Positions 5,302 through 24,463 of a DNA stretch of 36,924 nucleotides are shown here, one piece after another; the stretch's first letter is position 1, and each line of letters starts with the position of its first letter. The stretch is taken from contig CAIQQJ010000174.1 in assembly GCA_903873905.1 (NCBI GenBank), forward strand, positions 1 to 36,924, read 5' to 3'. A program made the position numbers and the translations under genes. The notes beneath the pieces were generated by a model that worked only from the letters and a program-made list of their open reading frames with translations, was not told the origin of the DNA and searched no databases. The stretch is from an uncultured Flavobacteriales bacterium (GTDB lineage: Bacteria > Bacteroidota > Bacteroidia > Palsa-965).

Positions 5302-6216
5302 GTGATCAAACATCATAAAAGTCACGAAATAGACCGAGATCGATGGGATGAATGTATCCGTAAATCGTTCAATGGAATTATCTACGCTTATTCGTGGTAC
5401 CTCGATGTCGTTTGTCCGAATTGGGAAGCACTAATCGATGATGATTATAAAAGTGTGATGCCACTGACCACTGGAAAAAAAATGGGATTGCGTTATTTAT
5501 TTCCACCATTTTTTGTTCAGCAGCTTGGGGTTTTTTCTGTTAACAAATTAACGGCCGAAGATGTACTTGGATTTTTGAAAGCTGTTCCAAAAGAATTTAA
5601 ATACGCAGAAATAAATCTCAACACCTTTAATAAAGTTGTTGGAAATGAATTTGATTTCCGTCCCAACCTTACGCATGAACTTGATTTGATTGAAGCGCAT
5701 GACAATCTGCGAAAGGCTTATGCGGAAAATACAAAACGCAATCTCAAAAAAGCTGAACAGAATAGTTTGTCGCTTACTGATGCTCCATCACGGGAAGAAA
5801 TAATCACACTTTTCAGGAAGGGTAGAGGAGAAGAGGTTAAGGTTTTGCAGGAACCACAGTATGATCTTTTACGAAAATTGCTTCAAGCCTTGGATGCCAG
5901 AGGGCGATTATATTCCAGAGGAGTTCTTGATGCCGATGGCAATCTTCTGGCAGGCGCTTTTTTTGTGGAGTCAAATGGCAAAGTAATTTTTCTCTTTTCA
6001 GGATTAAGTGAAAAAGGGAAAGCATTGGGAGCCATGTTTTTATTGATTGACAGATTTATTTTTGCCAATGCACAGAAAAATTTGGTGCTAGATTTTGAAG
6101 GAAGCAATGATCCCCATTTAGCTCGTTTCTACAGGGGATTCGGCGCAAAAGAATGTGTATATTTACAGGCACGATTCAACCATCTTCCATGGTTTATTCG
6201 TTGGTATAAAAGTTAA
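5302..6216 (+). CDS. FemAB/GNAT-like acyltransferase
   Basis: This is a 304-residue cytoplasmic protein starting at GTG 5302. The C-terminal half looks like the GNAT fold shared by FemAB and BioF2-like proteins: R-N-L-K-K-A near residue 148, L-L-A-G-A-F-F-V near 215, the turn L-S-E-K-G-K-A-L-G-A-M near 236, and D-F-E-G-S-N-D-P-H-L-A-R-F-Y-R-G-F-G-A near 268, which is characteristic. The family transfers amino acids or acyl groups to amino sugars or peptidoglycan precursors. Its position after wecB and a sugar deacetylase suggests it acylates the amine exposed by the deacetylase; this is inference from context. The donor and acceptor are unknown. Confidence 0.75.
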   Translation: MIKHHKSHEIDRDRWDECIRKSFNGIIYAYSWYLDVVCPNWEALIDDDYKSVMPLTTGKKMGLRYLFPPFFVQQLGVFSVNKLTAEDVLGFLKAVPKEFKYAEINLNTFNKVVGNEFDFRPNLTHELDLIEAHDNLRKAYAENTKRNLKKAEQNSLSLTDAPSREEIITLFRKGRGEEVKVLQEPQYDLLRKLLQALDARGRLYSRGVLDADGNLLAGAFFVESNGKVIFLFSGLSEKGKALGAMFLLIDRFIFANAQKNLVLDFEGSNDPHLARFYRGFGAKECVYLQARFNHLPWFIRWYKS

Positions 6217-19829: not shown

Positions 19830-20534
19830 ATGAAACCAATTACCATTGCCATTGACGGATATTCATCGTGCGGAAAAAGCACGATTGCAAAAAGTTTGGC
19901 TGCAAAACTGCATTATAGTTACGTGGATACTGGTGCAATGTATAGAGCGGTGACGCTTTATTGCATTGACCATGGCTTGATAAAAGATCATGCTTTTGAT
20001 GAGCATGAAATTGTTTTGGCATTGAAGGATATTCATCTCACTTTTAAATTCAATCCTAATACAAAATCTTCTGAAACTTTTCTTAATGGAATAAATGTTG
20101 AAAAGGAAATTCGGAGCATGAATGTTTCTTCAAGCGTGAGTCCTGTTTCGAAAATCCATGAGGTGCGTGTGCACCTGGTTGCATTACAACGTGAGATGGG
20201 AAAAAATAAGGCGGTGGTAATGGATGGAAGGGATATTGGAACAAATGTTTTTCCCGATGCCGAATTGAAAATTTTCATGACAGCAGATCCGGATATTCGA
20301 ACACACCGACGGTATGATGAACTTGCTGCGAAAGGTGTGAAAATTACTTTTGAGGAAGTTCGTGAAAATTTGATTTCACGCGATCATGAAGACACACACC
20401 GCAAGGAAAATCCATTGATCAAAGCCGATGATGCAATCGTTTTGGACAACACGGATTTGACTAGAGAAGAACAACTCGAATTTGTGGTGAAATTGGTAGA
20501 AGACCTGAGTCTTGGTTACGATTTGGCAAAGTAA
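19830..20534 (+). CDS. cmk: (d)CMP kinase
   Basis: Cmk phosphorylates CMP and dCMP to the diphosphates for RNA, DNA and CDP-lipid synthesis. The product has 234 residues with the P-loop I-A-I-D-G-Y-S-S-C-G-K-S-T at 6-18, Y-V-D-T-G-A-M-Y-R-A-V near 36, R-S-M-N-V-S near 92, V-V-M-D-G-R-D-I-G-T near 130 and the C-terminal lid with R-D-H-E-D-T-H-R near 188. Length and motifs are normal for the enzyme. The Y-S-S-C variant of the P-loop replaces the P-A-G-S common elsewhere. Its position next to phospholipid genes fits a link to CDP-lipid supply, though this may be chance. Confidence 0.95.
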   Translation: MKPITIAIDGYSSCGKSTIAKSLAAKLHYSYVDTGAMYRAVTLYCIDHGLIKDHAFDEHEIVLALKDIHLTFKFNPNTKSSETFLNGINVEKEIRSMNVSSSVSPVSKIHEVRVHLVALQREMGKNKAVVMDGRDIGTNVFPDAELKIFMTADPDIRTHRRYDELAAKGVKITFEEVRENLISRDHEDTHRKENPLIKADDAIVLDNTDLTREEQLEFVVKLVEDLSLGYDLAK

Positions 20535-20650: not shown

Positions 20651-20763
20651 GGCGTGCCCCTCCTGCGTCGGGTCGGGCTATCCGTTCCAAGTCCTCAGCC
20701 GCAGTGTCGGGTTTGAAAACCCAACACCACGGCTTCCGGGCTTTCCTCTACTATCCCTCACGC
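20651..20763 (-). repeat. Dispersed structured repeat, copy A
   Basis: Read on the reverse strand, it starts GCGTGAGGGATAGTA and ends GGGGCACGCC. The end stem GCGTG/CACGC closes the element. Inside, an 18-bp arm (AGCCGTGGTGTTGGGTTT paired with AAACCCGACACTGCGGCT, with G-T pairs) makes a strong hairpin. Then come GAGGACTTG, GGATAGCCCGACCC and a short variable arm. It is matched base for base over most of its length by copy B at 23021-23150, in the opposite orientation. It is not downstream of any gene read in its own direction. Confidence 0.85.
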
Positions 20764-20899
20764 AAGAAGAGGAGATTACGGAGACAAGAAAACACAACTA
20801 TTGCCACGAATTTCTAAAACCCAAACCCTACTGTGAATCTGCCATTTGAAATCTGCTTATTTGAACATCATTTACACATCATTTCCTCCTCATTTTCCC

Positions 20900-20907
20900 T
20901 AACTTCG
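20900..20907 (+). promoter_or_regulatory. -7-like box for the 20912 gene
   Basis: TAACTTCG is one base from TAnnTTTG and ends only 4 nt before the ATG, so a transcript from it would be almost leaderless. No -33 TTG is seen at the right distance. Confidence 0.35.
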
Positions 20908-20911
20908 CGGC

Positions 20912-21592
20912 ATGAAAGTCCGGTCACGGTTCAGTTATTTTAGAGATAAACTTCAGGTGTTTTTCCTTGGACTTTTGTTTGGTCTTGTTTTGGGCGGAGG
21001 TTTTTTTGTCTTGAAACTTGATCAATACGTGAGGGAGCTGTCATTTTATAAATCATTGACAGAAAAAAAAGATCAGAATGATTTGGTTACAGTCGATACA
21101 AAAACTGAAACTGAAAAGCCTGTTGTTAAAAAAAATAAAAAGGAAAATTCAGTTTCTTATCGAAGCGATTCTACTACAAAAAGTTCTTCCTCTATGGACC
21201 TTGACACTTCAACAAGCGTTGTGTCGAGAGGAAATACCAATGAAAATGGAACAACCTTCGTAGTTCGAAAGGATGAGATGCTGGCTGAGAAAACGTATTC
21301 TGCACAAATTATTGCCAACAAAAAATCGGGTGACTCAACCGCAATTAAAGAAAACCCCAGTACGGTCGATGTTGAGTTCTGGAAATCACCTTTAAATTAT
21401 CATGGATATAAATTCAGCCGAAATAAACTGGTTTTATTCGGTTTTGGCGATCAGGATTTGGTTTCCGTTTTCAAAATGGAAAATGAGACATTTCTAAAAT
21501 GTCTCACTGGTGTTTTTAGGGTTGAGCCAACAACCGAATTTCACCAATTAGAGCGCGTTACCGACGAATCTTTGCTTTCTAAAATCAAATGA
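20912..21592 (+). CDS. Membrane-anchored protein of unknown function upstream of dapF
   Basis: The product has 226 residues. One hydrophobic segment at about 14-34 (F-F-L-G-L-L-F-G-L-V-L-G-G-G-F-F-V-L) after basic residues should anchor it with the rest outside the cytoplasm. A low-complexity Lys/Ser/Thr/Glu linker (about 50-115) leads to a C-terminal domain with L-N-Y-H-G-Y-K-F-S-R-N-K-L-V-L-F-G and F-R-V-E-P-T-T-E-F-H-Q-L. I recognise no family. It overlaps dapF by 4 nt (ATGA), which suggests coupled translation and perhaps a role at the cell wall; the latter is only inference. Confidence 0.8.
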   Translation: MKVRSRFSYFRDKLQVFFLGLLFGLVLGGGFFVLKLDQYVRELSFYKSLTEKKDQNDLVTVDTKTETEKPVVKKNKKENSVSYRSDSTTKSSSSMDLDTSTSVVSRGNTNENGTTFVVRKDEMLAEKTYSAQIIANKKSGDSTAIKENPSTVDVEFWKSPLNYHGYKFSRNKLVLFGFGDQDLVSVFKMENETFLKCLTGVFRVEPTTEFHQLERVTDESLLSKIK

Positions 21593-22371
21593 AACGGACC
21601 TTTTATAAATACGAAGGCACCGGCAACGATTTCATCCTGTTTGACGACAGAGAAAATTCCTTCGATAAGAACAATTCAAAACTAATTGCTCGTTTGTGCA
21701 ACCGAAAATTTGGAATAGGTGCGGATGGCTTGATGTTGTTGCGCAATATAGAGGGATACGATTTTGAAATGGTCTATTTCAATTCCGATGGAAATCCGAG
21801 TTCTATGTGTGGCAATGGTGGAAGATGCATTTCTCGCTTTGCACTTGATATTGGTGCTGTGAAAAAAAACGAAGTGAGTTTCTTGGCCATTGATGGAAAG
21901 CATACTGCAATCATTACGCAAGAAACAGTGAAGTTGAAAATGAATGATGTGAACGAAATTGAGAATGGAAACGATTTTTTCTACTTGAATACAGGTTCTC
22001 CACATTATGTAACATTTAGTGCTCATGTGCATGAACTTGATGTTTTTACTGAAGGAAAAAATATCCGTAACAGTGATCGATTCAAAAAAGAAGGAACGAA
22101 TGTAAATTTTGTAGAGAAGGAAAAGGATGGGATTTTTGTTCGCACGTACGAACGTGGAGTGGAGAATGAAACATTGTCCTGCGGAACTGGCGTAACAGCC
22201 TGCGCGCTTGCAGCTGCGATAAAAGGCATTGCAACATCACCTGAAAAATGTTTGGTGAGCACGCTCGGAGGGAATCTTTCCGTTCATTATAAGCGTGAAG
22301 AAAATGGTTTTTCAAATGTGTGGTTGGAAGGCCCAGCGAATTCTGTTTTCAAGGGAGAAATTGAAGTTTGA
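21589..22371 (+). CDS. dapF: Diaminopimelate epimerase
   Basis: DapF converts LL- to meso-diaminopimelate for lysine and peptidoglycan synthesis without a cofactor. The 260-residue product has Y-E-G-T-G-N-D-F near the start, the first catalytic cysteine in S-M-C-G-N-G-G-R-C near residue 76, G-S-P-H-Y-V near 137, and the second in L-S-C-G-T-G-V-T-A-C-A near 202. Both catalytic Cys residues and the two-lobed pattern are intact. The length is slightly under the 274 aa of E. coli. It starts inside the previous gene and is followed, 86 nt on, by an orphan gene on the same strand. Confidence 0.96.
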   Translation: MKRTFYKYEGTGNDFILFDDRENSFDKNNSKLIARLCNRKFGIGADGLMLLRNIEGYDFEMVYFNSDGNPSSMCGNGGRCISRFALDIGAVKKNEVSFLAIDGKHTAIITQETVKLKMNDVNEIENGNDFFYLNTGSPHYVTFSAHVHELDVFTEGKNIRNSDRFKKEGTNVNFVEKEKDGIFVRTYERGVENETLSCGTGVTACALAAAIKGIATSPEKCLVSTLGGNLSVHYKREENGFSNVWLEGPANSVFKGEIEV

Positions 22372-22457
22372 TGTTGGTCGAAAAAAAATAATTTCGATTT
22401 TTGAAAAGAAATAATTCGGATTCAGTTTTCATTAATAGTATTGTCTAAAAAAGCGTT

Positions 22458-23003
22458 GTGAAAAATTTCACTTTAGAGAATATACGTTCTGCTGAAAATC
22501 AAGATTTGTCGAAAGGAGTTTTCGTGATACTATTTAATGCAACGAACATTCCACCGCACCTGTTGATTTCCATTGAGGGAAAAATTTATTCCATTACTGA
22601 TTCCGGAAGACAACTGGGAAGTTCATTGGAGAAATTGGTTTTGTTTATCAAGCGTAAAAATGTTCCCACAGTTTTTGTAGAATGGATGCAGTTGGAAAGT
22701 TGGAAAGTAGCAACGTTAGAAAGTTTGATTCGGGATTCTTTCTTAAAGTATGATAGGGTGGTGGAAGGTAAAATCTCCTGTTTGTTTCCTATTCGTGCTA
22801 TTGCTGCTGCGGTTTTGGGAGCGGAAATGATGAAGGCTAATTTTATTTTTGAATTGTTTCCGCTAATGGAAAAGAAAAATGCTCTTGGAAAAGTTTTTGA
22901 ACTGAATATGGGAACGGCAATTGTGAATAGCAATTTTAATTTATTGACTTATTCTGATAGTGAACTTCGAAAATCAATTCTTGAAGCGAAGAAAATAATT
23001 TGA
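22458..23003 (+). CDS. Conserved-looking protein of unknown function downstream of dapF
   Basis: This is a 181-residue product with a GTG start at 22458. It has no signal peptide and no membrane segment. The middle has a mixed alpha/beta look (G-V-F-V-I-L-F-N-A-T-N-I, T-V-F-V-E-W-M-Q-L-E), then C-L-F-P-I-R-A-I-A-A-A-V-L-G-A-E near residue 114 and an end L-N-M-G-T-A-I-V-N-S-N-F. I do not recognise the family. Codon use and base composition resemble the neighbours. Copy B of the structured repeat begins 17 nt after its stop, in the same direction, so it may be transcribed with this gene. Confidence 0.75.
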   Translation: MKNFTLENIRSAENQDLSKGVFVILFNATNIPPHLLISIEGKIYSITDSGRQLGSSLEKLVLFIKRKNVPTVFVEWMQLESWKVATLESLIRDSFLKYDRVVEGKISCLFPIRAIAAAVLGAEMMKANFIFELFPLMEKKNALGKVFELNMGTAIVNSNFNLLTYSDSELRKSILEAKKII

Positions 23004-23020
23004 TTTATTAGTTTGATCTC

Positions 23021-23150
23021 GCGTGAGGGATAGTAACGAAAAGCCCGGAAGACGTGGTGTTGGGTTTTCAAACCCGACACTGCGGCTGAGGACTTGCAGT
23101 GGATAGCCCGACCCCAATCCCAACAGCATTGTTGGGATTGGGGGCACGCC
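23021..23150 (+). repeat. Dispersed structured repeat, copy B
   Basis: It opens GCGTGAGGGATAGTA and closes with CACGCC; GCGTG (23021-23025) pairs with CACGC (23145-23149). The main arm spans 23050-23087 with one A-G mismatch at 23052/23085 that is a C-G pair in copy A. The second arm is a perfect 14-bp hairpin, CCCCAATCCCAACA (23112-23125) with TGTTGGGATTGGGG (23130-23143), which replaces the much shorter arm of copy A. Unpaired parts GAGGACTTG and GGATAGCCCGACCC are identical between copies. Confidence 0.85.
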
Positions 23151-23227: not shown

Positions 23228-24463
23228 TTAATACAAATCAGTATCGTCAATCAAATCAACCACATCTTTGTATTGAACTTTTTTCATTTCTTCTTCTTTC
23301 GATGCTTTTCGAATATCACCATTGCCAGGACCGGAATTATTATCGCCAGGATCCATTGTGTTGTTGAGATCCATGATGTCGTACATCAAATAATTTCCAC
23401 TTGATTTTTTTGCACTTCCGAAACGACAGGCAATTCCAAAATTCACAAATAGGGAAGGAGCAGGTTGCCCATCAAAAAAATTCGCGATGGGTCTTGCGTG
23501 ATTCTGTTGATTGAAAGAATGTGAATACAGCCAAACGTGTTCACGAACGGCAAATCCTCCTGCCACAAAAAAACTGAAATTAGGACTCGGACGGAAATCG
23601 AATCGTACACCATTTGAAAGTCCGGTTTGACCGAATTGAATTATTTTATCACCGAATGGATACAGACTGTCGCCATTGCTGATGTTGTATAATCCTCCGT
23701 ATGATTTACTGTAAATGCTAAACGAAAATTTCGGTGTTGGCTGAAAGTTGAATGAAATGACCCTTGGAAATTGGATGTTGAAATAAAATTTGCTGTCCAA
23801 TTTACCAATACGGAATCCCAACATCGGAAGGTAATTTCGATTGCCGAAAAGAAATGTTTTTGTAATTCCACCGCGCACGCTGAAACTTGGGTTGATCATC
23901 CAATTGAAAACGGCAGCGCTCGCAAATTTGAATTGTTGTGTTTGTTGTTTGTCGTATTTGTCACCAACTACATAAGGAGAAGCATCGACAAACAAAATGA
24001 ATTTTGAGCCGAATCCATAAATTGCACGCAGGCCCATTCCGATTTTATAAAGTTTGTGTTGTTGGTCCAATCCTGAAAAACGGGGTTGATCCAATAATCC
24101 GTTCATCGTCATTAAAAGATGAAACGTGTTCAAATTTGAACTGTCGTTTTTGTCAATGGAAGTGTGCGTGTAAAGCGGACAATAAAATCCAATGTTGGAG
24201 GTGATGAATTTATAATTTCCAAGTCGCGATGTGAGCATTTGACTTGGAATGGAATTCATGCTTTTCATTGGTCGACTTCCTGTTGCATAGAGGTTCATAT
24301 ATAAACAGGGCCGAATATAATTCCTGACTTCCCGCTGTTGTGCGGCAGAAAAAAACTGTTTTTGATTCAATGAATCATTCACACCCGCATGAAGCACGGA
24401 TGCCGGCAGAAAAATAATCAGCCAGCTCAATAGCAATAGAAAATGTTTTGCGCTTCGCATCAT
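23228..24463 (-). CDS. Predicted outer-membrane beta-barrel protein (DUF6268-like)
   Basis: This is a 411-residue protein with a signal peptide (about 1-26, ending L-H-A). The rest is rich in alternating aromatic/hydrophobic strands typical of outer-membrane barrels: K-F-I-L-F-V-D-A-S-P-Y-V, S-F-S-V-R-G-G-I-T-K-T-F, Y-L-P-M-L-G-F-R-I-G, F-S-F-F-V-A-G-G-F-A-V. The tail is an acidic/Asn-Gly linker and a charged segment ending L-I-D-D-T-D-L-Y, so it does not end in the usual terminal Phe. The pattern fits DUF6268-type porin-like proteins, from memory. It overlaps the previous gene by one base (TAATG) and ends the sigma-factor operon. Confidence 0.7.
   Translation of the reverse strand: MMRSAKHFLLLLSWLIIFLPASVLHAGVNDSLNQKQFFSAAQQREVRNYIRPCLYMNLYATGSRPMKSMNSIPSQMLTSRLGNYKFITSNIGFYCPLYTHTSIDKNDSSNLNTFHLLMTMNGLLDQPRFSGLDQQHKLYKIGMGLRAIYGFGSKFILFVDASPYVVGDKYDKQQTQQFKFASAAVFNWMINPSFSVRGGITKTFLFGNRNYLPMLGFRIGKLDSKFYFNIQFPRVISFNFQPTPKFSFSIYSKSYGGLYNISNGDSLYPFGDKIIQFGQTGLSNGVRFDFRPSPNFSFFVAGGFAVREHVWLYSHSFNQQNHARPIANFFDGQPAPSLFVNFGIACRFGSAKKSSGNYLMYDIMDLNNTMDPGDNNSGPGNGDIRKASKEEEMKKVQYKDVVDLIDDTDLY

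Follow-up and report, generated by a model that had tools for sequence, protein, structure and literature searches.

The two opposite repeats in the window (the whole stretch of DNA analysed here, 36,924 nt from an uncultured Flavobacteriales bacterium) are, judged from their sequences, members of the Flavo-1 superfamily by descent, but neither their scores nor their frame would place them in the curated family. Each is built on a conserved two-stranded core, closed by a terminal stem (P1) and bearing two arms (A and B).

Architecture and conserved fold of the window copies

The sequence-only reading had placed two opposite copies of a repeat at 20651-20763 (minus) and 23021-23150 (plus), and both coordinates and strands proved exact to the base; a covariance model of the core found exactly two matches in the window, namely these copies. 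In a host-genome similarity search, copies A and B matched at 92% over 97 nt. The features are, in order:

19830..20534, plus strand: neighbouring cytidylate kinase gene, cmk
20651..20763, minus strand: copy A, type I (window-type) Flavo-1-like element, TTGCGTGAGGG...CACGCC; RF01705 30.2 bits, core model 53.7 bits
20652..20656, minus strand: copy A closing stem P1, 3' strand CACGC
20657..20674, minus strand: copy A arm B, short form GACCCGACGCAGGAGGGG
20675..20694, minus strand: copy A core strand S2, GGACTTGGAACGGATAGCCC (covariation and core model)
20695..20737, minus strand: copy A arm A
20705..20726, minus strand: copy A, arm A tip: REP-like hairpin on a GTGG foot
20738..20757, minus strand: copy A core strand S1, GGGATAGTAGAGGAAAGCCC (covariation and core model)
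20759..20763, minus strand: copy A closing stem P1, 5' strand GCGTG
21589..22371, plus strand: neighbouring diaminopimelate epimerase gene, dapF
23021..23150, plus strand: copy B, type I Flavo-1-like element; RF01705 29.2 bits, core model 50.8 bits, fold z -6.7
23021..23025, plus strand: copy B closing stem P1, 5' strand GCGTG (partner CACGC, 23145-23149)
23027..23046, plus strand: copy B core strand S1, GGGATAGTAACGAAAAGCCC (covariation and core model)
23047..23089, plus strand: copy B arm A
23058..23079, plus strand: copy B, arm A tip: REP-like hairpin TGTTGGG-TTTTCAAA-CCCGACA, preceded directly 5' by a GTGG foot
23090..23109, plus strand: copy B core strand S2, GGACTTGCAGTGGATAGCCC (covariation and core model)
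23110..23144, plus strand: copy B arm B, long stem CCCCAATCCCAACA/TGTTGGGATTGGGG
23145..23149, plus strand: copy B closing stem P1, 3' strand CACGC

Thus P1 (GCGTG/CACGC) closes the core, arm A lies between S1 and S2, arm B lies between S2 and the return strand of P1, and the element ends in TTT-GCGTG and CACGC-CC-AAA. The copies contain every part claimed for them: the end stem, the main hairpin and the conserved blocks. A second arm of variable length had also been described, and arm B is indeed variable (35 nt in copy B vs. 18 nt in copy A), but the variation is not limited to it, as both arms vary and are exchanged. The predicted folds reach -67.4 kcal/mol in copy B (z -6.7) and -53.2 kcal/mol in copy A (z -4.4), with 0/200 shuffles as low in either case; the predicted minimum-energy fold of copy A leaves out the GCGTG/CACGC end stem, which the alignment nonetheless supports. 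The ORFs adjoining the elements (20912-21592, 22458-23003 and 23228-24463; 226, 181, and 411 aa) had no match in Pfam or NCBIfam.

The core itself consists of two 20-nt strands, S1 (consensus GGGAUWGnAGxGnAAAGCCC) and S2 (consensus GGACUUGnAyCGnAWAGCCC), which pair end to end around two GNA/GNA loops, in the order GGG/CCC, A.G, UW/WA, GnA/GnA, G-C with a variable x-y pair, GnA/GnA, AAG/CUU, C.A, and CC/GG. S1 and S2 are near-identical, so that the core is close to two-fold symmetry. Some of its conserved words had been taken for unpaired blocks, and while their conservation stands they are not unpaired: AGGGATAGTA lies opposite GGATAGCCC in one helix, as triples G.A / N.N / A.G, and GGACTTG is paired with AAAGCCC. 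At four loci (L021, L022, L023, L027) a small double hairpin, e.g., CCACATAGTGG-TCCCTTCGGGA, is inserted in S1 or in the symmetric place in S2.

The sequence-only reading had proposed a covariance model of the two copies as a check, and real covariation was found across many cores. Among 62 distinct cores (collected via BLAST, locus or Rfam, not by exact pattern), pairing was found in 96% of core cells, with 87 compensatory cells vs. a mean of 25.5 and a maximum of 38 when S2 strands were dealt among copies, and 3-13 when the partner strand was slid. On 23 type I cores, a dedicated covariation counter returned 15 vs. 4.8 (0/500 shuffles as high). P1 varies in a compensated manner as well, with GCGTT/AACGC in Bacteroides plasmids, GCGTC/GACGC in a microvirus record, and GGCTG/CAGCC at locus L285. 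Hence the fold of the element is under selection, and the strand on which it is kept is the GCGTGAGGG strand, since arm A of 22 host copies contains 45 G.T pairs vs. 4 A.C mismatches. Sheared G.A pairs are well established, and read in their light the G.A-rich triples would indicate the same strand. Dispersal and covariation together bear out the original view of a structured dispersed repeat rather than a decayed gene.

Relation to Flavo-1 and distribution

Flavo-1 RNA corresponds to Rfam family RF01705 (Weinberg et al., 2010; PMC2864571), and in the open full-text literature no paper naming Flavo-1 assigns it a function. The sequence-only reading had counted two outcomes against itself, a match to a described Rfam family and a lack of covariation in many copies. 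The second did not occur, covariation being strong, and the first came half true: the window copies are kin to Flavo-1, yet both score below the Rfam gathering cut-off for RF01705 (42 bits). In the host genome (3.93 Mb in 181 contigs), 78 RF01705 matches were found, 10 of them above cut-off, and these elements follow two frameworks: type I, the window form, with a T-tract followed by GCGTGAGGG, and type II, the canonical Flavo-1, with AAATAGCC...GCGGG...GTGAAGTG and then ~35 nt to CTGCTCC. The canonical outer frame (UAGCC...GGGAaaaagu) is replaced in the window copies by the GCGTG/CACGC frame and arm B. A covariance model built from type I cores alone nonetheless matched 19/19 tested type II host copies (24-49 bits, E 3e-4 to 1e-11), so that the window form constitutes a second framework within the Flavo-1 superfamily. 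The covarying pairs are identical in type I and type II cores, and one type II host copy (locus L043, 42.6 bits with the Rfam model) bears the arm A of the window copies.

Of 52 matches listed for copy B in the host genome, palindromic part-matches included, about 40 are places matching at E<=1e-13, and the family numbers at least 40 copies there. At least 114 stretches of bacterial genomes contain the exact type I pattern, and the displayed records with a named phylum are Bacteroidota (Flavobacterium, Algibacter, Pedobacter, Chryseosolibacter, Adhaeribacter, Marinifilum, Chitinophagaceae, and others); similar elements are found phylum-wide, as the sequence-only reading had stated for "other Bacteroidota genomes". 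RF01705 matches were obtained in 95/247 genomes of the host's class, and at least 128 copies lie in a single Flavobacterium chromosome, its genus being inferred from a metH match to Flavobacterium sp. LHD-80. Related elements are also carried by 83 Bacteroidales plasmid records and by one microvirus record (MG945641.1, unverified, from civet faeces), in which the element (5607-5666; L335 22-81) sits between genes, has the compensated P1 GCGTC/GACGC, and has its folding strand opposite to the coding sense. Two further candidate "phage" carriers, MT837256 and MT837462, were set aside, as their gene content looks like that of small Bacteroides plasmids, not viruses.

Overall, the copies are intergenic and occur in either orientation, both on chromosomes and on plasmids. 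Relative to neighbouring genes, host type I copies are of mixed orientation (+- 7, -+ 7, -- 7, ++ 2), and no conserved neighbour gene was found across the phylum, the genes adjoining the examined copies being varied; clusters of common neighbours do occur in Flavobacterium, and these look like orthologous positions that have been kept. The core was absent from 10 regions of congeners or other relatives matching the genes around the window copies. A bias with replication, as in IS200/IS605-type or lagging-strand elements, was considered, and orientation proved inconsistent among chromosomes (of five complete Flavobacterium chromosomes, one was nominally biased, p 0.04, and four were not).

Arm exchange, hypervariable loops, and the REP hairpin

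Both arms differ between otherwise alike copies and are swapped among copies. Upstream of metH in Flavobacterium, the element is found at 24/25 parsed loci (a presence that is over-counted, these loci being best matches to an element-containing query), and it stays in place while many species differ in the upstream gene and the types of arms A and B change from species to species. Beside these same elements (loci L238-L262) lie additional dispersed repeats, a CCTACAAGGTTTTAAAAACCTTGCAGG palindrome and ACTTAGAACCTTAGAATCTTAG repeats. Plasmids of the p5482 group join one element and its right flank to different left flanks, with the junction at the 5' edge of the element, and deletion forms between the two similar strands occur at L218 and L226. 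Edge junctions, varying metH upstream genes, and deletion forms fit homologous recombination between dispersed copies, and elements shared among plasmids may stem from plasmid shuffling. No exact empty site was found for the element, and plasmids likewise gave no clean empty sites, the breakpoints being shared left-edge junctions. By eye, the listed flanks showed no target-site duplication, the terminal TTT-GCGTG/CACGC-CC-AAA being present, and a search for an autonomous version, with a gene carried in one of the arms, found none.

A different pattern was observed in three MAGs (G372-G374; L133, L159, L132, and relatives), where 118 type I copies carry 118 different inserts of 31-35 nt (mode 33) between CACAGCGAG and CGAGCGAGG, in a nearly invariant scaffold. 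The inserts share a weak consensus, CCTCTAAGTTTGTTTATGAATTAAAGTTTGATC, and the closest pair is 79% identical under a lenient gapped alignment; there are no recent duplicates. No internal pairing was supported within these loops, and their local complementarity equalled the control; the idea of guides copied from the host genome was dropped when the 20 tested loops found no other match in their genome. Simple mobility fails to account for this pattern, and so does decay; in these MAGs either each copy is functional or the loop is diversified. It is tempting to speculate that the superfamily is a phylum-wide scaffold presenting an exchangeable or actively diversified arm A sequence. We regard this as rather improbable; if true, it would represent a sequence-presenting (guide-, receptor- or marker-like) system, or else a way of diversifying sequence that has no described counterpart among dispersed repeats.

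In the host lineage, arm A has a distinct tip. The host genome encodes a single REP-associated tyrosine transposase (RAYT; NF047646 104.5 bits, cut-off 80; L033 1261-1803, G000:C106:81549), flanked by GTAG/GTGG-TGTCGGG...CCCGACA hairpins. The same REP stem, usually GTGG-footed, caps arm A in the two window copies and in ~25 other elements, with only a handful of free copies. The foot is GTGG or GTAG in 16/21 scored copies (GTGG in 15 host copies, GTAG in one; both window copies have GTGG), and the GTRG tetranucleotide that marks REP/RAYT systems was found at the hairpin foot of the arm A tip only. To judge from the 7-bp stem and the foot, and from their occurrence in one genome, arm A is probably derived from a REP, although the loops differ. 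The core, however, was absent within 1.5 kb of the host's three Y1 genes and beside 29/30 other Y1 genes, which makes the host RAYT unlikely to explain the family. Three Flavo-1-rich genomes have no Y1 transposase gene at all, and most relatives of the element are missing the REP tip. A RAYT or IS200 transposase was therefore rejected as the enzyme that moves the core.

Candidate explanations and comparison with known systems

The explanation that we favor, at about even confidence, is that the window copies are type I elements of the Flavo-1 superfamily, non-autonomous, and spread by a putative enzyme acting on the folded strand together with recombination, with a REP in arm A in the host. 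The element has a closed three-way structure, made of P1 with its terminal TTT...CC-AAA, the core helix, and the two exchangeable arms. Recognition of this folded single strand by the putative enzyme would explain why the fold is retained while the element spreads non-autonomously, and homologous recombination between scattered copies would swap arms and flanks. In the host lineage, arm A would have gained the REP hairpin of the resident RAYT, which may have helped this sub-lineage to multiply. The failed searches for an exact empty site, a target-site duplication and an autonomous relative speak against this explanation, as does the absence of the core beside nearly all Y1 genes. Against purely selfish spread, the metH copy kept in many Flavobacterium species and the three-MAG loops point to a per-copy function or active diversification.

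Such a function could be that of a structured RNA, trans-acting or protein-binding and produced from many dispersed loci, in which the GNA/GNA core binds protein and the arms vary. We consider this possible but less likely: Rfam classes Flavo-1 as "sRNA", the core is strictly conserved across the phylum, G.T exceeds A.C on one strand, old copies keep the scaffold though their loops diverged, the position at metH is conserved, and in F. psychrophilum several of the structured 5' transcripts coincide with a Flavo-1 match (PMC9723704). In that same species, however, the matches are sense or antisense to transcripts and many fall outside them (PMC9723704), and the mixed gene orientation in the host, the varied neighbours, and the >100 copies per genome of some Flavobacterium, unusual for an sRNA, argue against it. 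Indifference to gene orientation would rather suit a DNA-level site, single-stranded or cruciform (a protein landing, replication or recombination signal), with each copy kept for its function in cis, as would the unduplicated copies with intact scaffold, the elements carried by conjugative plasmids and by a single ssDNA phage record, and the recombination junctions at the edge of the element; given the inconsistent replication orientation (one of five Flavobacterium chromosomes nominally biased) and the folding strand of the phage record, opposite to the coding sense, we consider such a site unlikely.

A REP/BIME system moved by the host RAYT would account for an arm A tip, GTRG foot included, that equals the REPs flanking that gene, and Bacteroidetes subclass 2.6 transposases are reportedly flanked by atypical structures that occur elsewhere in the genome (PMC6006769). 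With no core beside the three host Y1 genes and 29/30 others, most relatives lacking the REP tip, and Flavo-1-rich genomes without a Y1 gene, we find it very unlikely. A gene remnant, a terminator or a chance repeat is scarcely credible: in one copy (L006) the T-tract 5' of the element is reminiscent of a terminator tail, but in neither direction is the hairpin followed by a T-run, on which ground an intrinsic terminator was rejected, and the phylum-wide covariation counts refute all three.

Among known systems, the non-autonomous Flavo-1-superfamily element favored here resembles MITEs and ERIC/BOX-type repeats in being short, dispersed, intergenic, palindromic, multicopy, and present in both orientations. 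It differs in that no target duplication or parent transposon was found, and in an elaborate single-strand fold conserved far beyond what those names require. With REP/RAYT systems (PMC6006769) it shares the arm A tip, i.e., the GTGG/GTAG foot and the TGTCGGG/CCCGACA stem that the REPs next to the host RAYT have, whereas the remainder of the element does not resemble a REP and is missing beside RAYT genes; through this nested hairpin a Flavo-1-type element would, in a single lineage, be linked to a known enzyme of single-stranded DNA. With Flavo-1 (RF01705) itself it has in common the core strands GAUnGnAGnGnAAAGCC / GGACUUGnAnCGnAnAGC and their pairs. The window copies differ from it in their scores below cut-off, the GCGTG/CACGC closing stem, the GGG/CCC outer pairs, the extra arm B, and other flanks, while canonical host copies have the frame AAATAGCC...GTGAAGTG...CTGCTCC, unlike the window copies. 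Flavo-1, a name without function since 2010, thus turns out to be the core around which a larger modular element is built, in two frameworks and with defined ends, arms, and folding strand, and the core model, together with genomes holding >100 copies, makes its function directly testable.
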